The notes below the pieces were generated by a model that was not told where the DNA came from, did no database searches, and saw nothing but the letters and a program-made list of their open reading frames with translations. Both the position numbers and the translations under genes were made by a program. From positions 23,595,001 through 23,659,000 of the forward strand of contig OX424563.1 of the NCBI GenBank assembly GCA_949152475.1: DNA of 64,000 bases, in the 5' to 3' direction. The stretch is from Terebella lapidaria. Lineage: Eukaryota > Annelida > Polychaeta > Terebellida > Terebellidae. This document shows, one piece after another, positions 3,180 through 44,049 of this stretch. Position 1 is the first letter of the stretch. Each line of letters opens with the position of its first letter.

Positions 3180-3183
3180 TTAA

Positions 3184-7330: not shown

Positions 7331-7671
7331 AGCAGTCACGCATGCACATTGAGTAAATAAAATAAACTATGTGTACAGATGACACCATTTATTAGATCAC
7401 GCTTTCAAAAGTACATGGTTGAAGCAACTCTAAATGCATGTCTGCCAGTAGATGGATAACCAACACAGAACACAGAAAAACTTATATTGCTGCATCTTTT
7501 ATAAAGAAACGCGGGAGATTTCGCATCATAGGCCCACTTGTGCTATCAATAATTGGCCGAGTATATGAACAAATGTGGTCTTCAACAGCTGGAACAAATC
7601 AATTAAGCTCTAGTGAAATGAGATGTACTTCGATAAAGAGCATGTCAATTTATTGAAGTTTACTGGCAAGT

Positions 7672-7744
7672 GGCTCTGTGGCTAAGTGGTTAAAGCGCCT
7701 GTCTAGTAAACAGGAGATTCTGGGTTCCATTCCCAGCAGAGCCT
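7672..7744 (+). tRNA. tRNA-Thr (anticodon AGT), one odd T-loop base
   Basis: 73 nt with closed acceptor, D, anticodon and T stems and anticodon loop CTAGTAA. The T loop reads TTCCATT where all other copies have TTCGATT, so the usually purine position 57 is C and box B is weakened. A T5 run at 7759-7763 follows. It may be a weak gene or a recent pseudogene. Confidence 0.7.
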
Positions 7745-8092
7745 ATAGGTGTATTCCATTTTTAATCTGAGCAGGTTTCAAAATTCGACTGAAGGCCAAA
7801 TGTTGTGATATCAACCAACTTAGAGGCAAAATTTTCTATATTCATTTGTGACCAGCAAGAAAATAGAACCTTTACTGGCTATGGAGTGTCAAATAATATC
7901 GCCGACTTATATATATTATTACCTTCACTCGGGAGAGCATTAGAGAGTGGCAAACAATAGGACCTTCGCTGGTGAATGTGCGGCTTCTAGCATTGTAATC
8001 ACCCTCATTTTCTCGACTGAGGATTGCTCAATCAGACAATTTTTTTTTAGAAGTGCGTCTCTTATTGATGTCACACTTTGTGCGAAAGAAGC

Positions 8093-8172
8093 ATAAGTGG
8101 ATCCGTTTCTAAAAAAATTGAAACGCCTGAATAGTGAACAGGATTTATTCAGTTCGAATCCCAGTATGACTG
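8093..8172 (+). pseudogene. Decayed tRNA-Thr copy
   Basis: Keeps AAACGCCTG, AGTGAACAGG and CAGTTCGAATCCCAG, but the anticodon arm and acceptor are disrupted. It resembles the 'third copy' of other units (for example 13222-13295), with GTTTCT in the D region. Confidence 0.55.
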
Positions 8173-8204
8173 GAATTCTTTTCTGAGCACATATTTTAAA
8201 ATCA

Positions 8205-8413
8205 GCAATGTAGCTAAAACGCCTGTCTGGTAAACAGGAGATCCTGGGCTCAATTGACCTATCGCCGAACCCATTTGTCCGAGTCTTTTTACGCCATTTA
8301 CGACGCATTCTGCAAAACGTTATTATTGGCCAAAGAGAAGTTTGCCGACGTAATTTGTGAAACTCGGACAACTTTTGGGGGCTTTGGCGATAGGTCAATT
8401 CCCAGCAGAACCT
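8205..8413 (+). pseudogene. tRNA-Thr pseudogene split by a hairpin element
   Basis: The left part (to 8255) has AAACGCCTGTCTGGTAAACAGGAG and the start of the T arm; the right part (from 8397) has the rest of the T arm and the acceptor side CAGCAGAACCT. The break falls inside the T loop, where a 141-bp element was inserted at AATT. The anticodon loop reads CTGGTAA. Confidence 0.75.
8256..8396. mobile_element. 141-bp MITE with AATT target duplication
   Basis: Terminal inverted repeat GACCTATCGCC / GGCGATAGGTC, then GTCCGAG / CTCGGAC further in. AATT lies at 8252-8255 and 8397-8400, and the intact tRNA copies have a single ATT there. It carries no coding capacity. The family is not recognised; a 4-bp AATT duplication is uncommon. 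Confidence 0.75.
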
Positions 8414-8763
8414 ATCATAGAGATGCTTTTTTAGACTTTTTTTTTAGGGTTTCCCCTATCTCTTTTCACTCTCTTCTTCTGGTCGGGAAACCCTTTGACC
8501 ACGCTGGTCAACCATGACGCATCCCAACATGATTTCCGCCTGACTTTTTAAAACGGCCCTTGTTTACACTCAATACACTATTGGAAAATTTGATATTAGC
8601 CTATACCCCAATGTTTTCCCGAAAAAATGCATTGAAAGCCATGTTAGCGGAAAAAAACAAACGCCATAATAGACCTACTAAATTTTCCAATAGTACAGGG
8701 TGTGTATTCTGACCACAATTCTATAAATCAACAATGTTCTGACCATTTCACTGTATGCAGCAT

Positions 8764-8806
8764 GAACTAGCTCCGTGGCTAAGAGGTTGGAGCACCTGTC
8801 TAGAAC
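8764..8806 (+). mobile_element. Retroposed 5' half of tRNA-Thr with target duplication
   Basis: 8769-8803 is 35 nt matching tRNA-Thr positions 1-35 with about six changes; it stops inside the anticodon (CTGTCTAG). It is bounded by TTTCACTGTATGCAGCAT (8746-8763) and TTTCACTGAATGCAGCAT (8807-8824). Other units carry one related word at this place (TTTTCACTTACTGTAGCAT in U4) and no insert. This is the layout of a LINE-mobilised tRNA half. Confidence 0.7.
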
Positions 8807-9540
8807 TTTCACTGAATGCAGCATATTAACTGGATTTTCGGCCTTGTCTTTTTTCTTCTTTGCTGTTTCATGTTTTGTGTACATGTTTACAATAAAGAAA
8901 AATATGACTTCAGAACACGTTCGATTATTTATTATTTACGGGGTGACAATCACAAGCTTGCAAACAGCATCTGAAAGGATCTAAAAGCTGTGTCACAATA
9001 TGTGTTTAAAATGCGGTATAGAATAAATAGGTTATTTTATGATGTAAATAGCATCGAATGCATCCATTTGGACTACAAGCAGTGCTTTTTGATCATTGCA
9101 CAATGTGTGTCATAGCATCGGGGCTGAGCTGTGTTCTTTGTAAACAAGAGTACTGAAATTACAGGATTTTATAACGTAAGTGGGGAAATACTGTTGTCAA
9201 CTGATGCAGGACAATCGGTCATTCTTGTTTTAAAAACGTTAAGAAGATGTTCAAACATTATGTCACATGCTGCTTCACATTCAAACCTTTATATTGAGTC
9301 AAACCTTATTCAACCAATCACGGTGAATTTCGTCACAATTTTCAAGATAAACTGGTGAAGAATTTGGCAACAAACTTCCAACAACACCAAAAACACGTTA
9401 CTCCCCAATGTTTGCCGCAACGACATCTGCAACAGGCCGTGAACACAAATGAACCAGTTCCCGTTATGAGCTAGCATCCCTTTGTTAAGCAAGCTTGACA
9501 ACCACCAAAGCAAAACAGGGATACATTTATCAGGAGCGCT

Positions 9541-9589
9541 CACGTGTTGTGCGCATGCGCGGGTGCTTGCTTTCATTCACTGGCACGTG
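9541..9589 (+). promoter_or_regulatory. E-box / NRF1-like / E-box cluster, U1
   Basis: CACGTG 9541-9546, GCGCATGCGC 9551-9560 and CACGTG 9584-9589. GCGCATGCGC is the core of the animal NRF1 site and CACGTG the USF/MYC-type E-box. About 180 bp on comes GGCTACATAAAAGGG, a TATA-like word. The same order recurs in the other units, so it may be a Pol II promoter of a non-coding transcript; transcription is not shown. Confidence 0.45.
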
Positions 9590-11345
9590 CCTGCAACCCT
9601 CAGCAATTTTTCAAGAGATCGTTGAGAAATCGTTGCGTCTTTCTGCTCATTCCCAACAGGGGTGAAGTTGTAAAAACTCGCACCTTTTCTACACTCCACT
9701 CTAATCAGCAGTATCATCAAGTGCGGCACTTTTCCCAGGCTACATAAAAGGGAGAAACGGAAACAATACGTGTGGGGTTTTTTTATCTCGTTGGGAAGTC
9801 TCGCGCAGGGGTCACGTGTTCGTTATTTGTTAACACGCACAGTGCTGAGATAAACTGCAAACACATTACAATCTGATTTGAAGGTGCAACGTGGAATATA
9901 AATGTCTCTATCATGAGTAAAACAAAGGGGGGGGGTTGTTACGCATCAGGCTCTGTTGTTCTCCTGTTACTGTACATGTATGTTATGGTTACATGTTCAT
10001 GAAATCTGACAGCAATAGTTGTATTTCTGGACACACATTTTTCCGTTTTTGTTAATAGTATGTAATATTTGTCAATGTCATTACCAAAATACTTCCCAAT
10101 CATTTGCTGTTTACATTTTTATGGATACATTTGTCAAAAATTGCAGATATTATCAACAATATATTGTCAGAAAGACATATTATGCGGCTGGCATTCGGCA
10201 ATGATCATAAACCATAATATACAGCCACATTTGGTTCCTGTATCATTCTTAAACATGACAGCATTTTGTTATCATCATCATTACCGATGATATCCAATCT
10301 CTGCTGGGCATTTGGTTGAAAGCTCGTACGGCGATTTTATGTCGTTTAATTCCCGAGGAGATCACTGTTCGATTTCGCCATGTCGATAAATTTTACTTTT
10401 CCTGCCAAACGGTACATTTGGAGAGTATTAATTCAACACCAGGCCAGTGGTGTTTCTTCCTGTGCGCGATAGAGAGCGAATTGAGAAAACGTGTTGCAGG
10501 CTCGAGCATCTCCATTGGCGATCTATAGCCCGCCGGAATTAGAAATAAATCTATCTCATTAAGTCCGACAAATGAGATCCCTAATCAAATTGTGTCTGCC
10601 TCATGATGTCCCATCTGATTCCGGGGAAGAATTAACTTGTAATATTGACGCCAAAAGTGGCGCCAGAAATTGTCCGCCCTGAGCATGCTTTTGGACCATG
10701 GTTGAACATTGTTATTCATGAATGGATTGATTGTGAACATGGTTACTCAAGTTTATACACTAATGCTCAAAATGGTTGTTACATGCTTGATCGAGTGCAT
10801 TTTCTCATAGTTTGGACCTGTTTTGTTACCCTTGAAATGGTTCGAACATCCTTAACGTTTGGAATTATACTCTTCTGGCTCTTGTTCTATCCCTGAGCAA
10901 AATCTGAGTGAAAATATCGAAACATTTATTCCGTTCAATAGAGGAGTGTTAAGAGGTCCACATACAAAGGCCTGGGTTCATTAAATTTCTTCGATCCAAT
11001 GCTTGCACTTCAATCAAATGCTTGCATATCGTGATGCTGGACTGCACATATATTTGTTCGTCAGTGGGATCACACCATATGACTTGCCCACCCATTAGAA
11101 CATAGGCCTATTGTCGACACTGCGTGAACGCGTCTCTTTTGTAAACGATGGCTGTGTATATGACATGAAAATGGGACTCAAATAAAAATTACATCAGTGC
11201 TAGACATATCAGGATTCCTGATGGAATACCCCTTTGGGGTTCCATGGATTCCCCCCTACACCCCCTGGCTCCACAGTTATACCGTGAACCACGTGCGTGG
11301 GGTTATAGGCGGATGAAACGGAGGAGAGGGGGTAGCGGAGCTGTG

Positions 11346-11426
11346 TTACACAATGAAATCATCACCCAGCTCAGTGAGACAAATGGATTCCGGGTCGGGA
11401 TCGTCGCTTGGTGCATCTGTTTCCAT
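11346..11426 (-). other. Short conserved open frame (26 codons), U1
   Basis: On the minus strand an ATG-led frame starts METDAPSDDPDPESICL and ends DDFIV-stop. It is acidic and sits in the best-kept part of the unit. About 100 nt upstream (minus direction) is CCGTCGCCATCTTCAC, a YY1-like start-region word, followed by ATGGTAAGA, a possible splice donor. It could be the remnant of a captured gene 5' end or simply a conserved non-coding block. Confidence 0.25.
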
Positions 11427-13221
11427 AATCACATGGAAATTGTTTCATCTCGGGGCTTTTCGCCACGCGAAATCTCTAGATTTCCGTTCTCACTTTCTTA
11501 CCATTGCGGATCGACTTAATTAATAAGTGAAGATGGCGACGGGACATTGCTCATTGTATTTATGTAAGAATCAATCTATTACCACCAATAGTCAGATTTT
11601 GATGATGCCAATAACAAACGTAATACACAACATTTTTTGTTATGTATTACAAGTGTTATTTGTTACAAGTGTTATGTTGGGGACTTAGTAAACAACAAAA
11701 TAACTTTGATTAAAGTTAGATATATGTTTGACAACGACACCGGGTGAAACTTCGGCAAACAATATTATTTTATAATCTAAAAATTCGATGTTTGATGTCC
11801 AAACATCTTGAAAAGTGTTAAATTAAAATTGAATTTAGGCTCTTGCTTTGAGAACTAGCATTTATATTTATGATATCCTATCTATGTCTGAATATTCATG
11901 TCGTATATACTCATTCCATCTCGACGCAGAATCCCCACCCCAAAACCACATACACAGTATGAAGCACATGAAAGTGTCTTCTGGCCACAGGGGGCACACG
12001 TCGCCCACGAAATTGCCAAGTGTCGACGATATTGAGATAGATGTATGTAGGGTCAAAGTCCCTTGTCTCCAAATTTCAACAGAATTTCAATATGGGGTAT
12101 TAAAGTTCTTGGAACAGTCCCTTTGTGCTGGTGTGACTGTGTGGCTTGCAATATACTTACGCATACTTATACAAAACACCACTTTGCACAAATGTATATT
12201 CATAGAAAATTATTAGTGTACATATTGATGGCATTTGGGTGTCCTTTCATTTTGGCATGTTTTTCACACAAAATTGCACAGCTGACAAAATTCGGTCATA
12301 AATAAGAAGCTTATGCTTGAATGTGCATGTACACTATCACACACCTTCTGACATGGTGTTTCTATCACAACAAATTGTTCAAAGATTATGATGATCTTAT
12401 GACAAACAGTTGCCATATAAATCTGAAAATTTGGCCGCCTGGAGACGATCGTACCCCCCCCCCCCCCCACCTTCCTCCTTCAGCTTCGCTTTTGATTTGT
12501 CCGATGCCACGACATTACGACCGAAATCATTGTTATGCAGTTTAATTCCAGTGAGGATTACTCTTCGATTCGGAATGGCCTATAAATTCCCGACCTTTTA
12601 TTAAGTGTGGTCTTCTCATTTGGCATTATTTCATTGGAAGAGATGGGTGAGAAAAAGACATCGGTTACTCCGCTGTTCACTCAATCTAGAATAGCCAGCA
12701 GTGGAAGGCAACTTGGCGAAAAAGAGAAAAAGGAAGAAAACGACCGGAGCATTCAGACCTCTGATCTATAGCCCGCCGGAATTAGAAATAAATCTATCTC
12801 ATTTAGTCCCGACAAATAAGGGCCCTAATCAAATTGTGTCTGCCTCATGATGTCCCATCTGATTTCACAGCGAGTTGCATTCGGCTTTTGACGTGAAAAA
12901 CAGAACAGAAGGCAGGAAAAGACCGCTAACCAAGTAATACTGGTATGTTGTGATTTCGGTATTTATATCTGTTGTTTGTTGAGTTTGATTATAATTGTTA
13001 TTTTTTATTATGTGGTATTTTCAGACTCAAAGTTCAGATTACATGATGATGATGTATATCATAACAAAAAATAGGCTATGCAATGATCACAGACAGACGT
13101 TTAAAACATGAAAATACATTGTAGTTATCTCACTTTCCCAAGTGAGGGGTACTCAGTCACGCATTTGTGTAGGAGTGCATCATTTTTTTGATACTACACT
13201 CTTTGTTAAGGCAAGATAACT

Positions 13222-13295
13222 GGGTCAGTTTCTAGGTAGTTTGAAGCGCATGTCTAGTAAACAGGAGATGCTGGGTTCGATTATGAGCAGAACTT
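13222..13295 (+). pseudogene. Decayed third tRNA-Thr copy, U1
   Basis: Matches tRNA-Thr from TAGGTAGTTTGAAGCGCATG through TCTAGTAAACAGGAG and GGGTTCGATT. The acceptor stem is not closed (GGGTCAG against AGAACTT). The same locus is present in U2 to U5. Confidence 0.65.
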
Positions 13296-13464
13296 AGTGA
13301 AAACGCTTTTTTAGAATTTTTATCAGTCGGTATTTAGAGATTAGAATTTTTAATAGTCGGTATGTAGAGATTACAATTCTCCTTCTTCGTTAAGTAGAGA
13401 TAAAGCTCATTAGCTACTGACTCCATTGTTCCGCAGATGTCTATAACAAAGTTATAAACCTGTG

Positions 13465-13720
13465 GGAGGTGTTGTAATATTATATAATCATATTATATAA
13501 TCATTTTATATAATCATATTATATATTCATAATCATATTATTTATAATATAATAATATTATAATATTACAGTCTCATCCAATCTAGTCTATCCATTTCTA
13601 CTTTTAAACACATAACCACAACCATTTCACCATTATATAAACACATTATCATATAATACAATATTATAATATTATAGTCTCATCCAATCTAGTCTATCCA
13701 TTTCTATTTTTAAACACAAA
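13465..13720. repeat. AT-rich minisatellite with duplicated flank
   Basis: Repeats of TATATAATCAT and relatives. The word CAATCTAGTCTATCCATTTC occurs twice (about 13577 and 13688), showing a roughly 110-bp duplication in this unit only. A one-copy version is in U3 and U4. Confidence 0.6.
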
Positions 13721-14032
13721 GTCAAATTTTTCATGTTCGTTACCTTAAGTGCCCCGGAAAATAATGTAGAAATTCTACTTTCGTTTTTTATTTCTGTTTT
13801 AATTTATTATTTTTTGTTTACAAAACTTTTCATTTTTATGTTCTTCTTTTGTGCATACACACCATTTTCCCTGTGTTATCTTATTTTGGAGGACCACAAT
13901 GTAAATAAGTTTCTTTGAGACTTTCTTGTGTTATCCTCGTACATTCATGTGTCAGTATTCTACTTCCACTGCATATGGATTTACCGAATAAATCACATCA
14001 AATCAAAAAGATCGCTGCAGAGATCACTCGAA

Positions 14033-14127
14033 GTTATCCACTTCGTGCTCGGTGCATGTCAAATTATAAACCTCGTTGCTTCAAGGCTCGGTCTATAATT
14101 TTGACATGCACCTCAACTCAGTAGATA
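14033..14127. repeat. Foldback repeat, U1 copy
   Basis: Arms GTGCATGTCAAATTATA and TATAATTTTGACATGCAC around a short centre. Better-kept copies at 25853-25945 and 31872-31964 have GCTTCGCGGC in the centre. Probably a small foldback transposon fixed in the ancestral unit and absent from U2, U5 and U6. Confidence 0.55.
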
Positions 14128-14560
14128 ACTATTACTCATCTCGAGGTAGAAGTCCTTATCTAAAAGACAGTGATACATGGTAGACTCCTGCACTCAGTGT
14201 ATCGGCAGTGGGGTAGAAACCTAATTCACCATGCCACTCCGAATCTGTCATGAGCTACAAATATCCATCAATGCCAACACCGGAAAATCCCATTGTTCCC
14301 ATGGGAACAAACCATATACCAGTTGCTGAATATCACCAAATCTCACAGAAAAAAAAAATGGTTGGATGGTGTTAAGGCAAGTTCCCGCACAGGATTACCT
14401 CTTTATCTATCTTATTGTATTATCAATGATTGGCCCAGTAAACGAACAAATGTGATATCCGACAGCTGGAAATATCAAGCTCTCTTTTAATAAAATGTAC
14501 TTATACATAAAAACATTTGAGTTTATTGAAGTCACCGAAGCTCGTGAGAATTTTGCAAGC

Positions 14561-14632
14561 TGCTCTGTGGCTATGTGGTTAAAGCGCCTGTCTAGTAAAC
14601 AGGAGATCCTGGTTCGATTCCCAGCAGAGCCT
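14561..14632 (+). pseudogene. tRNA-Thr(AGT) pseudogene, U2
   Basis: 72 nt. The first base is T, so the first acceptor pair is lost, and one G is missing from the T stem (CTGGTTCG in place of CTGGGTTCG). The D region reads GGCTATG. The anticodon arm is intact. A T9 run follows at 14642. Confidence 0.75.
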
Positions 14633-15168
14633 AGTGGGGCATTTTTTTTTAGTATTTTCATCCTGGGTACATTCAAGTCAACAATGGTCTGAACATTTGA
14701 TTGTATTCACAAGCAAGTACAACAAAATATTCGCTGGTTAGAGAGTGGCAAACAATGTGAATGTTTATTCTGATCACAGCTTTTCAAGTCAATTTAGATC
14801 TGAACATTCTCCCTCACTGCAGCATAATTTGCTCTGCGGCCTTGCTTTGTTCTTGTTTGCAGTCTCATTTTTGGTGTACATGTACATAATCAAATGACAT
14901 TAACCGTGGATGAATGAAGAAAAATCCTCGAAAAATATAGCCTCGAACAAGTCCTGATAATTAGGTCAGTTCCGAGCTGTTAGTACTTGCCACTGACATG
15001 TTCATTAAGTGATCTTCAATTGATTATTCACAGAAAAGTACACCCCCATTTAGTCACATCAAATAGCATGATGAGTTTACTTTTCGGTGGATGAGTCATC
15101 TACGGAATTCCACAGACGACATGCCTGTCTTCATATCACTTTTGGGACCGTATGTGACCCTTTTGGGA

Positions 15169-15320
15169 CCCTCAGATAAGACCTACCCTTTTGCCACAAA
15201 ATTAAGGTCTTTTCTAAGGGGATGTGTTATTAGAGGGGTTCATTTACATGTTAAAGTCATTCTAGCGCCACAAGAAGAAGTCTTCACAGAGTCTTTCTTG
15301 AGGAGGGTCTTATCTGAGGG
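15169..15320. repeat. 152-bp inverted-repeat segment in U2
   Basis: Perfect 15-bp arms CCCTCAGATAAGACC (15169-15183) and GGTCTTATCTGAGGG (15306-15320). It stands where the other units have the minus-strand tRNA and about 1 kb around it. It is either a small mobile element or the scar of a rearrangement. Confidence 0.45.
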
Positions 15321-15418
15321 AGACCACTGTACACAAATGAACCAGTTCCTGTTATGAGCTAGCATCCCTTTGTTAAACATTAGCCACCAAAGCAAAACAG
15401 GGATACATTTGTAGGTGT

Positions 15419-15428
15419 GCGCATGCGC
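15419..15428 (+). promoter_or_regulatory. NRF1-like site, U2 (E-boxes lost)
   Basis: GCGCATGCGC is kept, but the E-box before it is missing and the one after it reads CACTTG. This matches the other signs that U2 is degraded in this part. Confidence 0.35.
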
Positions 15429-18400
15429 GGGTGCTTGCTTCCATTCAGTGGCACTTGCTTGCAACTCTCTGCAATTTCCAAGAGATCGTTGAGAAATCGT
15501 TGCTCATTACAAACGGTGTGAAGTTGTAAAAACTCGCACCTTTTCAACACTCAGCTCTGATCAGCAATATCATAAAGTGCGGCACTTTTCCCAGGCTACA
15601 TAAAAGGGAGAAACGGAAACAACACATGTGGGTTTTTTTATCTGGTTGTGAAATCTCGCGCAGTGGTCACGTGTTCGTTATTTGTTAACACGCATACTGC
15701 TGAGATAAACTCTCAAACACATTACAGCCTGATTTGAAGATACAACTTGGGATATAAATGTCTCTATCAGGAGCAAAACGAATGGGGGCGGGGTTGTTAC
15801 GCATCAGGCTCAATTGTTCTTCTGTTTTTGTCAATGTATGTTATCGTTAGATGTTCATGAAATCTGAGAGCAATAGTTGTATTTCTTACACCCTTTCATA
15901 TTTTCACGTTATTGACAATAGCAGTAACGTCTGTCATTGTCATTACCAAAATACGTCCCAATCGTTTGCTTTTCATAAGAATACATTTTGTCGAGAATTG
16001 CAGATACGTATCAGCAATATAGTTTCAGAAAGACATACCATTAGGCTGGCATTCGGCAATGACCATAAACTATAATATACAGCCACATTTGGTTCCTGTA
16101 TTATTCTTAAACATGACAGCATTTCAGTATCATCATCATAGCCGATGACTTCCAATCTCTGCTGGGCATTTAGTTGAAAGCTTGTACGGCGGATCTCATT
16201 AAGTCCGACAAATATGAGCCCTAATCAAATTGTATCCGCCTCATGATGTCCCATCTGATTCTGGGGAAGAATTAACTTGTAATATTGACACCAAAAGTGG
16301 CGCCAGAAATAGTCCGCCCTGAGTATGCTTTCGACCATGGTTGAACATTGTTATTCATGAATGGATTGATGTTGAACATGATTACTCAAGTGTATACACT
16401 AATGCTCAAAATGGTTGTTACATGCTTGATCGAGTGCATTTTCTCATAGGTTGGACCTGTTTTGTTACCCTTGAAATGGTTCGAACATCCTTAACGTTTG
16501 GAATTATACTCCTCTGGTATTGTTCTATCCCTGAGCAAAATCTGAGTAAAAATATCGAAACATTTATTCCGTTCAATAGAGGAGTGTTAAGAGGTCCACA
16601 TACAAAGGCCTGGGTTCATTTAATTTCTTCGATCCAATGCTTGCACTTCAATCAAATGCTTGCATATCGTGATGCTGGACTGCACATATATTTGTTCGTC
16701 AGTGGGATCACAACATATGACTTGCCCACCCATTAGAACATAGGCCTATTGTCGACACTGCGTGAACGCGTCTCTTTTTGCAAACGATGGCTGTGTATAT
16801 GACATGAAAACGGGATTCAAATAAAAATTGTGTCAGTGCTAGACATCTCAGGATTCCTGATGGAGTACTCCTTTGAGGTGTAGAGTCGGGTTAAACCTGT
16901 TTCCATGGATGCCCCCTACACCCCCTGGCTCCACAGTTATACCGTGAACCGCGTGCGTGGAGTTATAGGCGGATGAAACGGAGGAGAGTGGGTAGCGGAG
17001 CTGTGTTACACAATGAAATCATCACCCAACTCAGTGAGACAAATGGATTCCGGGTCGGGTCTTTGCTTGGTGCATCTGTTTCCATAATCACATGGAAATT
17101 GTTTCATCTCGGGGCTTTTCGCCACGCGAAATCTCTAGATTTCCGTTCTCACTTTCTTACCATTGTGGATCGACGTAATTCATACGTGAAGATGGCGAGG
17201 GGACATTGCTCATTGTATTTATGACACAAGTGTTATGTTGGGACTTTAGTAAACAACAAAATACCTTTGTTTAAAGTTAGATATATGTTTGACAACGACA
17301 CCGGGTGAAAAAACTTCGGCAAACAATAATATTTTATAATCCAAAAATTCGTTGTTTGATGTCCAAACATCTTGAAAAGTATTAAATTAAAACTGAAATT
17401 AGGCTCTTGCTCTGAGAATTAGCATTTATATTTATGATATCCTATCTATATCTGAATATACATGTCGTATATACTCATTCCATCTGGACGCAGCATCCCC
17501 ACCCAAAACCACATACACAGTATAAAGCACATGACAGTGTCTTCTGGCCGCAGGGGGCACACGTTACCCACGAAATTACCGAGTGTCGACGATATTGAGA
17601 TAGATGTATCTAGGATCAAAGTCCCTTGTCTCCAAATTTCAACAGAATTTCAATATGGGGTATTAAAGTTCTTGGAACAGTTCCTTTGTGCTGGTGTGAC
17701 TGTATGGCAGGCAATATACTTATGCATACTCATACAAAACACCACGTCTTTGCACAAATATATTTTCATAGAAAATTATTAGTGTACATATTGATGACAT
17801 GTTGGTATCCTCTCATTTTGGCATGCTTTTCACATAAAAATTGCACAGCTGACAAAATTCGGTCATGAATAAGAAGCATATGCTTGAATGTGCATGTACA
17901 CTATCACACACGTTCTGACAGGGTGGTCTATCGCAACAAATTGTTCAAGGATCATGGTTATCTTATAACAAAAAGTTACCATATAATACTGAAAATTTGG
18001 CCGTCTGGAGAAAATTTGAGAGAAGATCGTCATTCCCCCTCCCCCTCCCACACACATACGCCTTCGCTTCATTTCGTCCGACGCCACAACATTACGACCG
18101 AAATCATTGTTATGCGGTTTAATTCCAGTGAGGATTACTCTTCGATTCGGAATGGCCTATAAATTCTCAACCCTTTTATTAAGTGTGGTCTTCTCGTTGT
18201 GCATTAATTCATTAAAAGAGGTCGGCGAAGAAAAGACATCGGCTCCTCCGCTATTCACTCGGTCAAGAATAGCCCGCAATGGAGGGAGAATTGGCAAAAA
18301 AGGGGAAAAGAAAGAAAACGACCGAAGCATTCAGACCTCTGATGTATAGACCGCCGGAATTATAAATGAATCTTTCTCATTTAGTTCCGACAAATAAGGG

Positions 18401-25223: not shown

Positions 25224-25239
25224 TTAAGGCAAGATAACT

Positions 25240-33088: not shown

Positions 33089-33849
33089 ATGATACATATA
33101 AATGTCCATTTGTCTGCAATTATGACTGTTTGGTGACTTCAATGCTTTGACCTGCTTTATTGGACACATACCAGATTGGCTTCAATTGATTTTGCCCCAG
33201 ATGGCATTTCAAAATATTTCTGATCACATATGTGTGGCAAGTATGTGCTAAAGATAAGTGATGTCCAATATAGCTACAAAACATGGCCGATTATATACTA
33301 TTTACGGGGTGTCAATCACAAGCTTACGAGCAGCATCTGAAAGGATTTAAAAGCTGTGGCACAATTTGTGCTTAAATGTGGTATAGAAATAAATTGGTTA
33401 TTTTTATGATGTAAATAGCATCGAATGCATGCATTTGAACTACAAGCAATGCTTTTCGATCATTGCAAAATTTGTGTCATATAGCATCAGGGCTGAATTG
33501 TGTTCCTTATAAACAATAGTACTATGGAAAATACCGTTGTCAAGTGATGCAAGACAATCGGTTATTCTTGTTTTTAAAACGTTTAGAAGATGTTTAAACA
33601 TTAATTCACATGCTGTTTCACATTCCATGCTTTATGTTGACAATTTGTAAGATAAACTGGTATAGAATTTGGCAACAAACTTCCAACAAAACCAAAACAC
33701 GTTACTCTCCCAATGTTTGCCGCAACGACATCTGCAAGAGGCCGTGAATTAATGCATATACACACATGAAAGTTCCCGTTATGAGCTAGCATCCCTTTGT
33801 TAAGCATTAGCCACCAAAGCAAAACAGGGATACATTTATCAGGAGCGAT

Positions 33850-33897
33850 CACGTGTTGTGCGCATGCGCGGGTGCTTGCTTTCCTTCAGTGGCACGT
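33850..33897 (+). promoter_or_regulatory. E-box / NRF1-like / E-box cluster, U5
   Basis: CACGTG 33850-33855, GCGCATGCGC 33860-33869 and CACGTG 33892-33897, as in U4. Confidence 0.45.
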
Positions 33898-36800
33898 GCA
33901 TGCAGCCCTCAGCAATTATTCAAGAAATCGTTGAGAAATCTTTCTGCTCATTCCCAACAGAGGTGAAGTTGTAAAAATTCGCACCTTTTCTACACTCGAT
34001 ATTAATCAGCAATATCATAAAATGTTCCACTTTTCCCAGGCTACATGTTAGGAACAAACGGAAACAACACGTGTGGGCTTTTTTTTATCTGGTGGTGAAA
34101 TCTCGCGCAGTGGTCACGTGTTCATTGTTTGTTAACACGATTAGTGTTGAGATAAACACTGCAAACTCATTACAGTCAGATTTAGAGGTGCAACGTGGGA
34201 TATGAATGTCCATATCGGGACTAAAACAAAGGAAAGCGGTGTTGTTTCGTATCAGGCTCTATTGGTGTCCTGTTTCTGTATATGTATGTTATCGTTACAT
34301 GTTCATGATATCTGAGGGCAATAGTTGTATTTCTGCAATGTATGCACACACTTTCGTGAGTTATTTTACCCTTATTGTTAAAAGTATGTAACATTAGTTG
34401 TCATTATCAAAATACTTCCCAATCGTTTGCTTTTTATACGGATACATTTTGTCGAAAATTATAAATACGTATCAACAATATAGTTTCAGAAAGACATATC
34501 ATGTGGCTGGCATTAGGTAATGATCATAAACCATAATATACAGCCACATTTTGGTTCCTGTATCATTCTTAAACATGGCAGCATTTCGGTATCATCATCA
34601 TTGCCGATGATATCCAATCTCTGCTGGCCATTTAGTTGGAACCTCGTATAAATGCACGGCAATTTTATGCCGTTTAATTCCCGAGGGGATCACTGTTCGA
34701 TTTCGCCACATCGATAAGTTTTACTTTCCTCGCTAAACGGTACATTTGGAGAGTATTAATTCAACACCAGGCCGGTGGTGTTTCTCCCTGGGCGAGATAG
34801 AGAGCGAATTGAGAAAACGTGTTGCAGGCGCGAGCACATCTACTGGCGATCTATAGCCCGCCGGAATTAGAAATTAATCTATCTCATTAAGTCCGACAAA
34901 TAAGGGCCCTAATCAAATTGTGTCCGCCTCATGATGTCCCATTCGATTCCTGGGGAGGAATTAACTTGTGATATTGACGCCAAAAGTGGCGCCAAAAATT
35001 GTCCGCCTCGAGCATGCTTTTGGACCATGGTTGGACATGGTTATTCATGAATGGATGGATGTTGAACATCGAAATTCAAGTTTATACACTAATGCTCAAA
35101 ACGGTTGTTACATGCTGGATCGAGTGCATTTTTCTCATAGTTCGGACCCGTTTTTTAACCCTTGAAATGATTCGAACACCCTTAACTTTTGGAGTTAGAT
35201 TCTTCTGGTATTGTTATATTAATAAAAATATTGCAATATTAATTCCATTTAATAAAAGAGTGTCAGGAGGTCTCTCAAAATGAGCGTCAAATGCCGCATA
35301 TAAAGCCTGCGTTTGTACGCGGCATTTCTTTGATCCAATGATTGCACTTCAATCAAATGCTTACATATCGAGATGTTGGAATACACAAATATTTGTTCGT
35401 CAGTGGGATCACACCATATGACTTGCCCACCCATTAGAACATAGGCCTATTGTCGACACTACGTGAACGTGTCTCTTTTTGGAAACGACGGCTGTGTACA
35501 CATGACATGAAAATGGGATTCAAATAAAAAATTGCGTCAGTGCTAGACATCTCAGGATTCCTGATGGAGTACCCCTTTGGGGTTCCATGGATGCCCCCTA
35601 CACCCCCTGGCTCCACAGTTATACCGTGAACTGCGCGCGTGGGGGTATAGGTGGATGAAACGGGGGAGAGGGGGTAGCGGAGCTGTGTAACACAATGAAA
35701 TCATCACCCAGCTCAGTGAGACAAATGGATTCCGGGTCGGGATCGTTGCTTGGTGCATCTGTTCCCATAATCACATGGAAATTGTTTCATCTCGGGGCTT
35801 TTCCCCGGCCACCGTGAAATCTCCAGGTTTCCGTTCTCGTTTTCTTACCATTGCGGATTGACATAATTCATACGTGAAAATGGCGACGGGACATTACTCA
35901 TTGTATTGATGACCCAAATATTATTTTGGGACTTCAGTAAACAATGAATTAACTTTGATTTCGAGACAAGCAATAATATTTTGCTATCCCTACTTTGAAA
36001 ATGCGTTGTTTGACGTCAAAATAGCTTGAAAAGTATTAATTTTAAATTAAAACTATGCTCTTATTTTGAGAATAAGCATTTAAATTAATTATTTCCTACC
36101 TATGTCTGAATATACATGTCGTACATACTCATTCCATCTCGACGCAACATACCCACCCCAAAACTACATACACAGTATAAAACACATGAAAGTGTCTTCT
36201 GGCCACAGGGGACACACGTCACCCACGGAATTGCCGAGTGTCGACGATATTGAGATAGATGTATCTAGGATCAAAGTCCCTTGTCTCCAAACTTCAACAG
36301 AATTTCAATATGGGGTATTAAAGTTCTTGGAACAGTCCCTTTGTGCTGGTGTGATTGTGTGGCTGGCAATATACTTACGCATACTTATACAAAACACTAC
36401 GTCTTTGCACAAATATATTTTCATAGAGAATTATTAATGTACATACTGATGACATGTTGGTATCCTCTCATTTTGGCATGCTTTTCACAACATTGCACAG
36501 CTGACAAAATTCGCTCATGAATAAGAAGCATATGCTTGAATCTGCATGTACACTATCACACACGTTCTGACAGGGTGGTCTATCGCAACACATTGTTCAA
36601 GGATCATGGTTATCTTATAACAAAAAGTTACCATATAATACTGAAAATTTGGCCGTCTGGAGAAAATTTGAGAGAAGATCGTCATTCCCCCTCCCCCTCC
36701 CACACACATACGCCTTCGCTTCATTTCGTCCGACGCCACAACATTACGACCGAAATCATTGTTATGCAGTTTAATTCCAGTGAGGATTACTCTTCGATTC

Positions 36801-37324
36801 GGAATGGCCTATAAATTCTCAACCCTTTTATTAAGTGTGGTCTTCTCGTTGTGCATTAATTCATTAAAAGAGGTCGGCGAAGAAAAGACATCGGCTCCTC
36901 CGCTATTCACTCGGTCAAGAATAGCCCGCAATGGAGGGAGAATTGGCAAAAAAGGGGAAAAGAAAGAAAACGACCGAAGCATTCAGACCTCTGATGTATA
37001 GACCGCCGGAATTATAAATGAATCTTTCTCATTTAGTTCCGACAAATAAGGGCCCTAATCAAATTGTAATTTCGGTATTTATATCTGTTGTTTGTTGAGT
37101 TTGATTATAATTGTTATTTTTATTATGTGGTAATTTCAGACTCAGAGTTCAGATTACATAGAACATGTATATCAATAAAAATAGGCTATGCAATGATCAC
37201 CGACAGACGTTTAAAACATGACAATACATGACAGTACAGTAGTCACTCTCACTTTCCTGAGTGAGAGGTGCTCAGTCACGCATTTGTGTGGGAGTGCGTC
37301 TTTTTTTGTTGAGGAAAGATAACT

Positions 37325-37398
37325 GGATCAGTTTCTAGGTAGTTTGAAGCGTATGTACAGTGAACAGGAGATGCTAGCTTCGATTCTGAGCAGAACCT
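37325..37398 (+). pseudogene. Decayed third tRNA-Thr copy, U5
   Basis: Matches the U2 version (TGTACAGTGAACAGG, GCTAGCTTCG), not the U4 version. This supports the mosaic reading of U5. Confidence 0.6.
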
Positions 37399-37933
37399 AG
37401 TGAAAACGCTTTTTTGAGAATTTCTATTAGTCGATATTTGAAGATTAGAATTATTTATAGTCGGTATACAAAGATTAGAATTTTTATTAGTCGTTATGTA
37501 GAGATATCGCTCATTATCTCGAGATAGAAGTCATCATCTGATACAGTGATACATGCACTGCTGCACTCAGTGTATCGGCGGGGGTGAAGGGTAGAAACCT
37601 AACTCACCATGCCACTTCGAATCTGTCATGGGCTACAAATATCCATCAATGTAATACACCAGAAAATCCCATTGTTCCCATGGGAACAAACAATATACCA
37701 GGTGCTTAATATCACCAAATCTCTGTAGCTGTATTGGATGTATTGATGGTAATAGATTGATACTCACATTATAATATATCTTATTGTATTATCAATGATT
37801 GACCCAGTAAATGCAAAAAAATGTTATATCCGACAGCTGGAAAAATAAATAAAGCTCTCTTGTAATGAAATGTACTTACATAAGAACATTTGAGTTTATT
37901 GAAGTCACCGAAGCTCGTGAGAATTTTGCAAGT

Positions 37934-38006
37934 GGCTCTGTGGCTTAGTGGTTAAAGCGCCTGTCTAGTAAACAGGAGATCCTGGGTTCGATTCCCAGCA
38001 GAGCCT
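37934..38006 (+). tRNA. tRNA-Thr (anticodon AGT), U6 plus
   Basis: Intact 73-nt cloverleaf, identical to 19271 including the GGCTTAGTGG D region. Confidence 0.9.
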
Positions 38007-38647
38007 ATTGGGCATCCTTATTTTAGTATTTTCATCCTGAGTACATTTAAGTCAACAATGGTCTGAACATTTGATTGTATTCACAAGCAAGAACAATAGA
38101 ACATTCGCTGGTTAGAGAGTGGCAAACAACATGAATGTTTATTCTGATCACAGCTTTTCAAGTCAATTGAGCTCTGAACATTTTCACTTACTGCAGCATA
38201 ATTTGCTCTGTAGCCATGTTTTGTTCTTGTTTGCAGTCTCATTTTTTGTGTACATGTACATAATCAAATGACACTAACCATGGATGACTGAAGGAAAATC
38301 CTCGAAAAATATAGCCTCGAACAAGTCCTGATAGTTAGGTCATTCACGAGCTGTTAGTACTTGCCACTGACATGTTCACTATGTGATCTTCAATTGATTA
38401 TTCACACAATGCACAGAAAAGTACAACCCATTTAGTCACATCAAATAGCATGATGAGTTTACTTTTCCGTGGATGAGTCATCAACGGAATTCCACAGACG
38501 ACATGCCTGTCTTAATATCACTTTTGGGACCGAATGTGGTATGCCGTATGTCGCCTATGGAATTCCATAATTACAAGAAAAAGGTGCAGTAAAAACCGAT
38601 CTTTTTTCGTCTAAATGGCTAAATTCGTCAAAAAACTAACTCCAACC

Positions 38648-38720
38648 AGGCTCTGCTATGAATCGAACCCAGGATCTCCTGTTTACTAGACAGGCGCTTT
38701 AACCACTTAGCCACAGAGCC
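38648..38720 (-). pseudogene. tRNA-Thr(AGT) with broken T stem, U6 minus
   Basis: Acceptor and anticodon arm are intact, but the 3' side of the T stem reads CATAG where other copies have CCCAG, leaving two mismatches. The otherwise equal U3 copy is intact, so this is a fresh loss. A T6 run follows (38630-38635 on the plus strand). Confidence 0.75.
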
Positions 38721-39172
38721 ATGATACATGTAAATGTCCATTTGACTGCAATCATAACTGTTTGTGTCATATAGCATCAGGCCTGAATGGTGTTCTTTAT
38801 AAACATTAGTACTAGGGAAAATACCGTTGTCAAGTGATGCAGGACAATCGGTCATTCTTGTTTTAAAAACATTCAGAAAATTTAAACATTAACTCACATG
38901 CTGTTTCACATTCCATTCTTTATGTTGAATCAAACCATATTCAAGCGATCAAGGTGAATTTTGGCACAATTTTCAAAATGAATTGGTGAGGAATTTGGCA
39001 ACAAACTTCCAACAACACCGAAAACACGTCCGCAATGTTTGCCGCAAAGACATCTGCAACAGGCGACGAATTAATGCATGTACACAAATGAACCAGTTCC
39101 TGTTATGAGCTACATCCCTTTGTTAAGCATTACCCACCAAAGCAAAACAGGGATACATTTATCAGGAGCGCT

Positions 39173-39221
39173 CACGTGTTTTGCGCATGCGCGGGTGTTT
39201 GTTTTCATTCAGTGGCACGTG
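39173..39221 (+). promoter_or_regulatory. E-box / NRF1-like / E-box cluster, U6
   Basis: CACGTG 39173-39178, GCGCATGCGC 39183-39192 and CACGTG 39216-39221, as in U3. Confidence 0.45.
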
Positions 39222-39710
39222 CCTGCAACCCTCTGCAATTTTTCAAAATATCGTTGAGAAATCGTTGCGTCTTTCTGCTCATTCCAAACGGGGGTGAAGT
39301 TGTAAAAACTCGCACCTTCTCGAAACTCGACTCTGATCAGCAATATCATAAAGTGCGGCACTTTTCCCAGGCTACATAAAAGGGAGAAACGAAAACAACA
39401 CGTGTGGGTTTTTTTTTATCTCGTTGTGAAATCTCGCGCAGTGGTCACGTGTTCGTTATTTGTTTTCATGCATAGTGCTGAGATAAACTCTCCAAACACA
39501 TTACAGCCTGATTTGTAGGTGCACCGTGGGATATGAATGTCTCTATCAGGAGTAAAACAAAGGGGGGGGGGGTTGTTACACATCAGACTCTATTGTTCTC
39601 CTGATTCTGTACATGTATGTTATGGTTACACTTTCATGAAATCTGAGAGTAATAGTTGTATTTCTGCACACACTTTCATATTTTCCCGTTAGTGATAATA
39701 GTATGTAACA

Positions 39711-40227
39711 TATGGCGCCCCGTTCGTGCCACAAAAAAAGAGAATTTCTTTTTTTTCTAACTCATACGTATGAGATAGTATCTCATACGTATGAGTTACT
39801 AAGTCATACGTATGAAATTAAAAGTCATATGTATGAGATAAAAGTCATACGTTTGAGATACTAAGTCATACGTATGAGATAATAAGTCATACATATGAGA
39901 TACTATCTCATACGTATGAGATACTAAGTCATACGTATGAGATAATAAGTCATACGTATGGGATAGTATCTCATACGTATGAGTATGTCATAGTATCTCC
40001 TACGTATGACTTAGTATCTCCTACGTATGACTTAGTATCTCCTACGTATGTCATAGTATCTCCTACGTATGACTTAGTATTTCATACATATGTGTTAGTA
40101 TCTCCTATGTATGACTTGCTATCTCATACGTATGTGTTAGTATCTCCTACGTATGACTTTTTATTTCATACGTATGAGATAAATAAAAAATAACTTCCCT
40201 TTTTGCTGGCATGAACGGGGCGCCATA
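39711..40227. mobile_element. MITE with palindromic satellite core, U6 copy
   Basis: Same element, same site and same GTAACA duplication (39705-39710, 40228-40233) as 21050-21523, so it was copied with the unit. The core is 43 bp longer: two more TACGTATG units in the right half. The core therefore changes length faster than its flanks. Confidence 0.85.
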
Positions 40228-41153
40228 GTAACACTTGTCAATGTCATTACCAAAATACTTCCCAATCGTGTGCTGTTTACATGGATATGGATACATTTTG
40301 TTGAAAATTGCAGATATTATCAACAATATAGCTTCAGAAAGACATATTATGCGGCTGGCATTCGGCAATGATCATAAACCATAATATACAGCCACATTTG
40401 GTTCCTGTATCATTCTTAAACATGACAACATTTCGGTATCATCATCATTGCCGATGATTTCCAATCTCTGCTGGGCATTTAGTTGGAACCTGGTATAACT
40501 GCACGGCGACTTTATGTCGTTTTATACCCGAGGGGATTACTGTTCGATTTCGCCACGTCAATAAATTTTACTTTTCCTGCTAAACGGTACATTTGGAGAG
40601 TATTAATTCAACACCAGGCCGGTGGTGTTTCTTCCTGGGCGCGATAGAGAGCGAATTGAGAAAACGTGTTGCAAGCACGAGCACATCTACTGGCGATCTA
40701 TAGCCCGCCGGAATTAGAAATAAATCTATCTCATTAAGTCCGACAAATGAGAGCCCTAATCAAATTGTGTCTGCCTCATGATGTCCCATCTGATTCCGGG
40801 GAAGAATTAACTTGTAATATTGACGCCAAAAGTGGCGCCAGAAATTGTCCGCCCTGAGCATGCTTTTGGACCATGGTTGAACATTGTTATTCATGAATGG
40901 ATTGATTGTGAACATGGTTACTCAAGTTTATACACTAATGCTCAAAATGGTTGTTACATGCTTGATCGAGTGCATTTTCTCATAGTTTGGACCTGTTTTG
41001 TTACCCTTGAAATGGTTCGAACATCCTTAACGTTTGGAATTATACTCTTCTGGCTCTTGTTCTATCCCTGAGCAAAATCTGAGTAAAAATATCGAAACAT
41101 TTATTCCGTTCAATAGAGGAGTGTTAAGAGGTCCACATACAAAGGCCTGGGTT

Positions 41154-41858
41154 CCACATACAAAGGCTAAAGACAAACTACAGGTGTTACAAAACAGGGC
41201 ACTTCGTATTGTTCTATGTGCTCCTTACAGAACACATGTTGAATCACTTCACTCGCAGTGTAATCTCCCAACACTACAAAAGAGAAGGGATTTTCACTTG
41301 TCAACCCTTTTGTATAAATGTGTCCAGGGCCTACTACCGGAATATTTATGTAACCTGGTCAAATATCAAAGTCACCGATACGGTACGCGGTCCACCACAA
41401 ATCAGTGTTTGAGTCTTCCTAAGGTCAAACTTGAATGTGGCAAGAGGGGCATTAGCTTATCGTGGTGCAAAACACTATAATACATTACCACCCGAGTTGT
41501 ACCAAACACCTGATCTTCAAACATTCAAACGTCAGTACAAACACTTGTTTGGTGTGTAAGTGTACACTTTGTCTAAAACTGGTTTTATCTGTTCTCATTG
41601 TGCTGTTTTCGTAATTGTCCATGTGTCCCTGTATGTAATGTACCCCGTGTAATGTCTGTATGTATGTACATGTGTACCTGTATGTAATGTACTCCATTTA
41701 ATGTTTGTATGTGTGTACCTGTTCTCGCTGTATTGTTCTCGCTGTATGTGTGTTTACACCTATCATCTCTATGTAAATCATCCAGGGTCCTGGGGGAGAT
41801 CAGTGCTACCACTGACCAGGTTACCCCTGGCTAAAGAACAAAAAAATAAAAATAAAAA
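41154..41858 (+). mobile_element. 5'-truncated LINE tail (CR1/L2-like) in U6
   Basis: Encodes the last part of a non-LTR reverse transcriptase protein: KLQVLQNRALRIVL, then YRTHVESLH, LPTLQKRRDFHL and RYGTRSTT, typical of the C-terminus in the Jockey/CR1/L2 group. The frame breaks near 41450 (a +1 shift) and continues as RGAKHYNTLPPELY to a stop near 41560. The 3' UTR ends in AAAAAATAAAAATAAAAA. The left junction repeats the 14-bp word CCACATACAAAGGC (41133-41146 and 41154-41167); no clean target duplication spans both ends. Absent from the same place in U1 to U5. Confidence 0.85.
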
Positions 41859-44049
41859 TTCATTAAATTTCTTCGATCCAATGCTTGCACTTCAATCAAA
41901 TGCTTGCATATCGTGATGCTGGACTGCACATATATTTGTGCGTCAGTGGGATCACACCATATGACTTGCCCACCCATTAGAACATAGGCCTATTGTCGAC
42001 ACTGCGTGAACGCGTCTCTTTTGTAAACGATGGCTGTGTATATGACATGAAAATGGGATTCAAATAAAAATTACATCAGTGCTAGACATATCAGGATTCC
42101 TGATGGAATACCCCTTTGGGGTTCCATGGATGCCCCCTAAACCCCCTGGCTCCACAGTAAAACCGTGAACCGCGTGCGTGGGGTTATAGGCGGATGAAAC
42201 GGAGGAGAGGGGGTAGCGGAGCTGTGTTACACAATGAAATCATCACCCAGCTCAGTGAGACAAATGGATTCCGGGTCGGGATCGTCGCTTGGTGCATCTG
42301 TTTCCATAATCACATGGAAATTGTTTCATCTCGGGGCTTTTTTCGCCACGCGAAATCTCTAGATTTCCGTTCTCACTTTCTTACCATTGCGGATCGACGT
42401 AATTCATAAGTGAAGATGGCGACGGGACATTGCTCATTGTATTTATGTAAGAATCAATCTATTACCACCAATAGTCAGGTTTTGATGATGCCAATAACAA
42501 ACGTAATACACAACATTTTTTGTTATGTATTACAAGTGTTATTTGTTACAAGTGTTATGTTGGGACTTTAGTAAACAACAAAATAACTTTGATTAAAGTT
42601 AGATATATGTTTGACAACGACACCGGGTAAAACGGCAAACAATATTATTTTATAAGCTAAAAATTCGATGTTTGATGTCCAAACATCTTGAAAAGTATTA
42701 AATTAAAATTGAATTTAGGCTCTTGCTTTGAGAACTAGCATTTATATTTATGATATCCTATCTACATGTATGTCTGAATATACATGTCATATATACTCAT
42801 TCCATCTCGACGCAGCATCCCCACCCCAAAACCACATACACAGTATGAAGCACATGAAAGTGTCTTCTGGCCACAGGGGACACACGTCACCCACGAAATT
42901 GCCGAGTGTCGACGATATTGAGATAGATGTATCTAGGGTCAAAGTCCCTTGTTTCCAAATTTCAACAGAATTCCAATATGTTGTATTAAAGTTCTTGGAA
43001 CAGTTCCTTTGTGTTAGTGTGTTTGGCTGGCAATAAACTTATGCATACTCATACAAAACACCACGTCTTTAAACAAATATATTTTTGTAGAGAATTATTA
43101 GTGTACATATTGATGACATTTTGGTATCCTTTCAATTTGGTATGCTTTTCACACAAGATTGCACAACTGACAAAATTCGGTCATAAATAAGAAGCATATG
43201 CTTGAATGTGCATGTACACTATCACATAGTCACGTCCTGACAGGGTGGTCCGTCGCAACAAAGTGTTCAAGGGTTATGATGATCTTATGACAAAAAGTTG
43301 CCATATAATTCTGAAAATTTGGCCGCCTGTAAAAAAATCAAGAGACGATCGTGACCCCATTCCCCCCTCCCTCCAATGCCCCCCCCCCCCCCCCACTCCT
43401 CCTCCATCTTCGCTTCAATTCGTCCGATGCCATGACATTACGACCGAAATCATTGTTATGCAGTTTAATTCCAGTGAGGATTACTCTTCGATTCGGAATG
43501 GCCTATAAATTCTCAACCCTTTTATTAAGTGTGGTCTTCTCATTTGGCATTAATTCATTGGAAGAGGTCAGTGAAAAAAAGACATCAGCTCCTCCGGTGG
43601 TTTACTCAATCCAGAATAGCCCGGAATGGAGGGTGAATTGGCAAAAAGGGGAAAAAGAATAAAAACGATTGGAGCATTCAGACCGCCGATCTATAGCCCG
43701 CCGGAATTAGAAATAAATCTATCTCATTTAGTCCTGACAAATAAGGGCCCTAATCAAATTGTGTCCGCCTCATGATGTCCCATCTGATTTCACAACGAGC
43801 TGGCAGCACTCGGCTTTTGACGTGAATAACAGAACAGAAGGCGAGAGAAGACCAAGAAATCTATGTTGTGATTTAGGTGTGCATCTCTGTTGTTTATTGA
43901 AATAGATATAATGTACAAGTAATATATGTTTTTGCAACTGAGCACATGAAGCGATGAGCGCCAGTCACTCTTTTAGTTAATATAACGAAAGTTTCGGAAT
44001 TCATATCGGTTCTTTAAAATATGTTCTCATATTTTCGCACGACTCATTA

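Follow-up and report, generated by a model that had tools for sequence, protein, structure and literature searches.

A six-unit tandem array with facing tRNA-Thr(AGT) genes in a single-isoacceptor tRNA-Thr cluster

The window, i.e., the whole 64-kb stretch of DNA analysed here, contained 12 tRNA-Thr(AGT) genes according to ARAGORN, 10 of them inside 7450–43905, where a preliminary description made from the sequence had placed a six-unit tandem array. Self-BLAST and ARAGORN confirmed this array and, with the units cut at a common anchor, refined its extent to 7538–43912. The units start at 7538, 14415, 19121, 26140, 32159 and 37784, and the array ends near 43912; units 1 to 6 are thus 6877, 4706, 7019, 6019 and 5625 bp and about 6.1 kb long. 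Pairwise identity among the six units ranged from 0.817 to 0.983, most pairs differing by 4%–18%. A convergent pair of tRNA-Thr(AGT) genes was present in four of the six units (units 3–6 only), so that the plus/minus pair previously attributed to most units was recovered there but not in units 1 and 2. The distance between the facing genes, calculated from the ARAGORN coordinates, was 634–641 bp, consistent with the earlier estimate of about 640 bp. The decayed third tRNA copy noted earlier was found in five of the six units (units 1–5), whereas unit 6 ends short of its position.

All six units are oriented on the plus strand. In unit 1 (7538–14414), the plus tRNA (7672–7744) has closed stems and a mutated B box, the segment matching the minus tRNA is absent, and relics at 8118, 8215 and 8770 accompany the decayed third copy (13241–13291). 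The plus tRNA of unit 2 (14415–19120) is only 72 nt long and has lost its A box (14561–14632), the minus tRNA has been removed by a deletion, and the third copy lies decayed at 18683–18737. Strictly, units 1 and 2 carry a damaged gene only. Intact convergent pairs are found in unit 3 (19121–26139; 19271–19343 on the plus and 19985–20057 on the minus strand), unit 4 (26140–32158; 26290–26362 and 26997–27069) and unit 5 (32159–37783; 32309–32381 and 33016–33088), with decayed third copies at 25259–25301, 31278–31320 and 37344–37398, respectively. Unit 3 also contains a palindromic 21-bp satellite (21096–21478). In unit 6 (37784–43912), the plus tRNA (37934–38006) is intact, and the minus tRNA (38648–38720) has a broken T stem and B box.

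Genes were scored as intact when they had closed stems, an A box, a B box and, within 60 bases, four or more consecutive T. Seven of the ten array copies passed (19271, 19985, 26290, 26997, 32309, 33016 and 37934), exactly the proportion of good copies counted earlier, and three failed: 7672 (B box), 14561 (72 nt, A box; stems unscored) and 38648 (T stem and B box). The array therefore has the make-up of a tandem tDNA array, with head-to-tail units containing complete tRNA genes that retain Pol III boxes and terminators. In the window as a whole, 8 of the 12 genes were intact, and the T-run was kept in all 12. Upstream of the array, an inverted partial unit (3180–4782, minus strand) carries an intact tRNA-Thr(AGT) gene (4689–4761, plus strand), the counterpart of the minus gene in the full units. 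Three decayed tRNA-Thr copies lie farther upstream, on the minus strand of 1411–1900 (1411–1483 and the further relics 1667–1738 and 1829–1895), between the 6-kb array and a second array outside the window.

This second array is a head-to-tail series of 1,067-bp units, every one carrying two genes on the same strand; it extends over 55 kb and ends 4.4 kb upstream of the window. It contains 88 more tRNA-Thr(AGT) genes (ARAGORN), 56 of which passed the intactness test, and its 36 full-length units match a single reference unit at about 98% identity. Over 264 kb, ARAGORN identified 100 tRNA genes, all Thr(AGT), forming a cluster of 98 kb (C9:23535750–23633720). One identical sequence is common to 58 of the 100 genes, including five in the window. 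The similarity of this array to the 6-kb array is limited to the gene and a few adjacent bases, and because the trailers differ between the two, transcripts should be assignable to one array or the other.

Among the 6-kb units, units 4 and 5 are 97%–98% identical, units 3 and 6 are 96% identical, and the block of units 2 and 3 resembles that of units 5 and 6 (94% over 6.3 kb), which is the pattern of unequal exchange. Multiplication of a single unit by the assembler is argued against by the 4%–18% difference between most unit pairs and by private inserts in unit 3 (about 715 bp, 24509–25223) and unit 6 (about 705 bp, LINE-like, 41154–41859), although the pair of units 4 and 5, which are 98% alike, may be an assembly duplicate. 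The anatomy, the copy-by-copy decay and the near-identity of the genes were directly observed, and we consider it probable (roughly 0.8) that this array represents the flank, older and eroding, of a tRNA-Thr megacluster with a single isoacceptor and about 100 genes in 98 kb, remade by unequal crossing-over. The cluster would then combine the 1,067-bp units, as a young and homogeneous core, with the six-unit flank, and crossing-over between units would, as the pattern suggests, multiply and trim copies. The 73-bp Pol III genes may sit in units that are otherwise expendable baggage, and the intact gene copies would feed the tRNA-Thr pool of the cell; tRNA-Thr(AGT) reads ACU, ACC and ACA once A34 is converted to inosine. 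Single copies would be individually dispensable and could drift into relics. Among the three roles previously suggested for the array, the setting of tRNA-Thr dosage appears to fit best, judging from the sequence.

Whether the genes are maintained was examined by comparing them with their flanks. Genes were significantly less diverged in three of the seven unit pairs tested: units 3 and 4 (genes 1/146 differences, flanks 53/762, p = 0.001), units 3 and 5 (1/146, 55/762, p = 0.001) and units 4 and 6 (3/146, 54/762, p = 0.02), which are not independent pairs, since units 4 and 5 and units 3 and 6 are near-copies. The remaining four pairs showed no significant difference: units 2 and 4 (2/73, 51/608), units 2 and 3 (3/73, 42/664), units 4 and 5 (0/146, 3/767) and units 3 and 6, where the genes were the more diverged (2/146, 6/772). 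The contrast between units 3 and 4 does not fit the earlier suggestion of a satellite that incidentally carries tRNA, although four of the seven pairs were not significant. The same data bear on the possibility that the flank is a silent graveyard, in which drift has preserved a segmentally duplicated piece of tRNA-bearing DNA while the real supply comes from the 1,067-bp core. The damage to 3 of the 10 array copies, the decayed third copy in five of the six units and the lack of significant gene conservation in the pairs involving unit 2 are in line with such a history, as is the location of the four damaged window genes (1411, 7672, 14561 and 38648) in the outer parts of the region, even though the gene at 4689, which is outlying too, is intact. 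However, the roughly tenfold lower divergence of genes than of flanks between unit 3 and unit 4 or 5 (p = 0.001), the exact match of five window copies to the commonest sequence of the cluster and the T-run of four or more in every window gene speak against it, and we regard this scenario as rather doubtful.

The low gene divergence in the flank array could be maintained by selection or by short gene conversion. In the core, the two genes of the 1,067-bp unit (0.017 and 0.013) were no more conserved than the spacer (0.019; median of 73-bp spacer windows, 0.013), and selection on single copies is therefore not visible there. With regard to rDNA-like concerted evolution, in which copies would be more alike than their context predicts, the picture is thus mixed: three of the seven unit pairs of the flank show the expected contrast, whereas four pairs and the core do not. 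A tentative variant is that only the 73-bp gene bodies are kept identical, by short conversion tracts jumping between arrays, strands and units with unrelated flanks. Five genes of the old flank, on both strands and in a context unrelated to the core, have the commonest sequence of the cluster, but because unit 5 was copied recently and almost exactly from unit 4, or the reverse, they count as about three independent cases. If this variant were true, the bodies of Pol III genes would themselves be the conversion tract.

The numerous relics in both orientations might also recall a tRNA-derived mobile element (a SINE, or an LTR element with an internal tRNA) amplified in place. Against this, all 40 genome matches scored, out of 109 candidates, fell in the one 98-kb cluster, and the copies are full 73-bp genes with T-runs and share no 3′ tail between the two arrays. 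The dispersed copies of a tRNA-derived SINE were not found among the 40 of 109 candidates scored, nor was its non-tRNA tail, the trailers differing between the arrays, and that assignment was rejected. The facing genes are not LTRs, because their flanks do not match each other. An origin as a mobile element is accordingly hardly credible.

Tandem tRNA arrays were also found elsewhere in the same genome, on other chromosomes, in the stretches sampled: Cys, Lys and Gln/Arg/Gln, the last with facing genes. One 680-bp tandem tRNA unit contains convergent as well as divergent genes, and pieces of the tRNA-Cys region repeat over several kb. Single matches on C11, C172 and C417 each corresponded to one tRNA gene and no array in the short surrounding stretches. 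The earlier view of the array as unusual is weakened by the convergent genes of the 680-bp unit, by the repeated tRNA-Cys region and by the position of the array at the margin of a 98-kb, 100-gene cluster. These arrays also bear on the idea that A34 tRNA-Thr was amplified on demand, to supply mucins and other low-complexity proteins rich in Thr. The presence of 100 Thr(AGT) genes in one cluster would suit this idea, and one study reports a correlation across species between A34-tRNA gene content and such proteins (R = 0.53; PMC8266599). Nevertheless, tRNAs other than A34 (Cys, Lys, Gln and Arg(TCG)) are arrayed too, indicating that the tandem organisation is not specific to Thr, and amplification by demand seems improbable.

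The remaining suggestion, a chromatin boundary, would make the tRNA pairs an insulator like the human 1q23.3 repeat. The human unit mixes several isoacceptors, whereas the array here has a single isoacceptor, about 39% GC in its units, six degenerate units and no CTCF-like motif of the vertebrate type. A vertebrate CTCF-like core (at most one mismatch) matched once in 64 kb against 1.23 expected, though a different CTCF motif could be missed; the sole match lies at 7445, outside all units, so that the CTCF site per unit of a TREP-like repeat was not found with this motif. According to PMC4041453, the human repeat is likewise a multi-kb tandem unit (7.3 kb) carrying several tRNA genes, but it is GC-rich, binds CTCF and occurs in 9–43 units per allele; between human and mouse, its tRNA genes are conserved and nearly everything else is not. 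Barrier activity has been reported for tRNA genes (PMC4041453), and the long repeat here lies beside a gene for a clarin-like protein (minus-strand exons within 55927–58749, which point to an animal genome). The other tRNA arrays, by contrast, argue for a general habit of the genome, the vertebrate motif lends no support, and a boundary role is considered very unlikely.

The array is instructive but essentially an ordinary tRNA gene array, of a kind known from human 1q23.3 and Entamoeba. A multi-kb tandem unit carrying tRNA genes is also shared with Xenopus laevis, whose 3.18-kb unit mixes isoacceptors and whose units are homogeneous. According to PMC2652664, Entamoeba arrays likewise have tRNA genes in tandem units, up to five per unit, and comprise nearly all tRNA genes of E. 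histolytica; they differ in belonging to a protist with microsatellite-like intergenic repeats, 25 array units and over 10% of the genome in arrays, whereas the array here belongs to an animal, its spacers are long and its flank is heavily decayed. In a survey of clustered tRNA genes, zebrafish, stickleback and other eukaryotes have many of their tRNA genes in single-isoacceptor or mixed clusters with parallel and facing (tail-to-tail) genes; most neighbours share one orientation, and in Xenopus and Danio almost all do, which supports the earlier statement that a single orientation is usual, and facing genes are favoured in some other species (PMC2888827). The facing pairs here lie within the spacing of under 1000 bp that defines a cluster in that survey, and the multi-kb steps from pair to pair exceed it (PMC2888827). 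Among the papers listed in literature searches without the species name, none was found to deal with this tRNA-Thr locus, which says little. With an apparently young, homogeneous array beside an old, decaying flank and the same gene in unrelated units of one chromosome region, the locus offers a natural test of selection versus gene conversion in keeping animal tRNA genes identical, and it bears on which copies of a huge tRNA family are used.

Other content of the units was limited. An Rfam search of the unit (E up to 1) returned the two tRNAs, four matches to other families that overlie the tRNAs themselves, and a single match at chance level; in five further 10-kb stretches, all 33 matches at gathering scores were tRNA. 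Ten ORFs were scanned in the window, five of them within units; four of these five were without any Pfam match at E up to 1, and the sole match of the fifth (E = 0.11) was under its cut-off. A frame of about 117–126 aa (from 30064 in unit 4) is open in the units, with pN/pS of about 0.3–0.7 and frame-shifting length differences in some. A frame in unit 1 (11169–11519, 116 aa) has lower ratios of about 0.2–0.4, with one stop in each of the five other units and shifting length differences. Both were rejected as working genes, and either may be a decayed gene. Between units 4 and 5, the 117–126 aa frame shows zero synonymous changes.

The window lies at the flank of a larger tRNA-Thr(AGT) cluster on contig OX424563.1 (C9). 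ARAGORN, applied to 264 kb of the 761.6-Mb assembly (the window together with the 160 kb preceding it and the 40 kb following it), identified 100 tRNA genes, all Thr(AGT), with 93 on the minus strand and seven on the plus strand. Upstream, 88 genes are arranged head-to-tail at C9:23535750-23590591 in a 1,067-bp unit carrying two genes 242 bp apart, and full-length units are ca. 98% identical to a reference unit. The remaining 12 are those of the window, where Rfam yielded 13 tRNA matches at gathering score. One sequence is common to 58 of the 100 genes, including those at window positions 19985, 26290, 26997, 32309 and 33016; outside the genes and a few adjoining bases, no match was found between the 1,067-bp array and the 6-kb array of the window. 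Between the arrays lie decayed tRNA copies and fragments of the 6-kb unit, inverted and decayed (window 3180-4782, and two pieces at about C9:23591503-23592620). The 1,067-bp array is broken by a 6.3-kb insertion (C9:23551803-23558097) without any stop-to-stop frame of at least 150 aa.

The six tandem units proposed in the preliminary description were recovered by self-BLAST and a six-way alignment, starting at window positions 7538, 14415, 19121, 26140, 32159 and 37784, with the array ending near 43912 and pairwise identities of 0.817-0.983. Ten of the 12 window genes fell inside the interval originally assigned to the array. Facing plus- and minus-strand genes, described for most of the units, were found in units 3-6, while units 1 and 2 have no minus gene: self-BLAST placed the deletion that removed it from unit 2 between 15156 and 15328, and the similarity of unit 1 to the other units restarts only at 8901, beyond the minus-gene position. 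The decayed third copy is present in units 1-5 (13241, 18683, 25259, 31278 and 37344). An explicit intactness test, which required four stems, both promoter boxes (A and B) and a run of four or more T no further than 60 bases away, was passed by 8 of the 12 window copies and 7 of the 10 array copies, so the earlier count of seven good copies was exact.

Units 2-3 match units 5-6 at 94% over 6.3 kb and unit 4 matches unit 5 at 97%-98%, the remaining pairs being older. Copied blocks thus spanned more than one unit, and unequal crossing-over may have copied them. The insertions private to units 3 and 6 speak against the array units being assembly duplicates of one another, although units 4 and 5 could be.

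Within the homologous block holding both genes, mismatches were fewer in gene than in flank bases for units 3/4 (1/146 vs 53/762; Fisher p = 0.001), 3/5 (1/146 vs 55/762; p = 0.001) and 4/6 (3/146 vs 54/762; p = 0.02), three pairs that are non-independent because units 4/5 and 3/6 are near-copies. Differences were not significant for units 2/4 (2/73 vs 51/608), 2/3 (3/73 vs 42/664), 3/6 (2/146 vs 6/772) and 4/5 (0/146 vs 3/767). The older copies could be held alike by conversion or, alternatively, by selection. Among the 36 full-length 1,067-bp units (partial units left out), diversity was 0.017 and 0.013 in the genes and 0.019 in the spacer (median of 73-bp spacer windows, 0.013); this likeness gives no sign of constraint on single tRNA copies. 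The contrast between flank and core fits copies that would be individually expendable, with identity across the two contexts renewed by conversion.

We argue that the cluster would supply tRNA-Thr, given that both arrays contain intact genes followed by T-runs, that ARAGORN accepts the tRNA as tRNA-Thr(AGT) and Rfam as tRNA, and that genes diverge less than flanks between unit 3 and units 4 and 5. The suggested boundary function found no support: a CTCF core, a vertebrate motif that may not suit this animal, matched once where 1.23 matches were expected, and that match lies outside the units.

A whole-genome Rfam search (63 of 38,090 first-look candidates scored) listed 61 tRNA matches, an incomplete set since the C9 cluster is absent from it. 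Three short regions hold 48 of those listed: C2 near 42.16-42.19 Mb (25), C1 near 42.08-42.14 Mb (12) and C12 near 29.08-29.12 Mb (11); of the other 13, C4 and C11 have two each and nine are scattered. Stretches were fetched for containing tRNA matches and are not a random sample. On C12, a 680-bp tandem unit (Gln(CTG) minus, Arg(TCG) plus, Gln(TTG) minus; 25 genes in 6 kb) has both divergent and convergent neighbours. On C2, tRNA-Cys genes are spaced 150-160 bp apart along most of two stretches, with 18 in the first (one of unclear anticodon) and 20 in the second (three labelled SeC, one with ACA). Cys(GCA) genes occur in five C1 stretches; four share mutually matching pieces at 67%-90%, apparently the pattern expected of a degenerate multi-kb array, and the fifth, with four genes spaced at 141 bp, has no long match to the others. 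On C4, six Lys(CTT) genes are arranged as pairs with a spacing of 199 bp, and the repeat unit measures ca. 1,004 bp. A single tRNA was found in each of four short stretches, two of them on C11 and the others on C172 and C417. The window is thus not the only place with tandem tRNA arrays; one elsewhere is mixed-strand and one apparently has multi-kb units. Thr-rich low-complexity proteins are a published correlate of A34 tRNAs (PMC8266599), but demand from such proteins is a less likely, because Thr-specific, driver of the cluster, given that Cys, Lys, Gln and Arg(TCG) tRNAs also form arrays in this genome.

The human 1q23.3 tRNA repeat (7.3-kb unit; PMC4041453) is nearest in form to the C9 array, and the discussion in that paper describes homogeneous tandem repeats of tRNA genes as uncommon except in Entamoeba. 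The C9 cluster adds another case of this kind; its best feature is that young and old arrays are neighbours, with one gene in both. Facing genes had been considered unusual; the published rule that neighbouring tRNA genes are mostly parallel (PMC2888827) favours "less common", although the C12 array is itself mixed-strand.

In the second C2 stretch (C2:42188501-42192500), the three SeC labels given by ARAGORN reflect the anticodon: 3 of the 20 tandem tRNA-Cys-type genes (stretch positions 760, 2539 and 2847) combine a Cys tRNA body with the anticodon TCA, which would read the stop codon UGA. The three share a linked change, and two have a changed B box; the ACA copy is at 297. The TCA copies are candidate UGA-reading tRNAs, or might reflect harmless drift in an oversized family.

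In the window, a 21-bp tandem repeat with the palindromic core CATACGTATG occurs in units 3 and 6 only (TRF; 21096-21478 and 39761-40181). Frames resembling LINE reverse transcriptase ends by eye only (60280-60717, minus; 41031-41480, plus) had no Pfam match at cut-off; the latter partly coincides with the insertion private to unit 6. Clarin-like membrane protein exons lie beside the array on the minus strand (55927-56268 and 58369-58749; Pfam Clarin-2, E = 7e-11 for one and 5e-6 for the other, the latter exactly at cut-off). A 147-bp satellite of ca. 2.8 kb, with higher GC than its surroundings, extends from window 62342 to C9:23660115, past the right window end.
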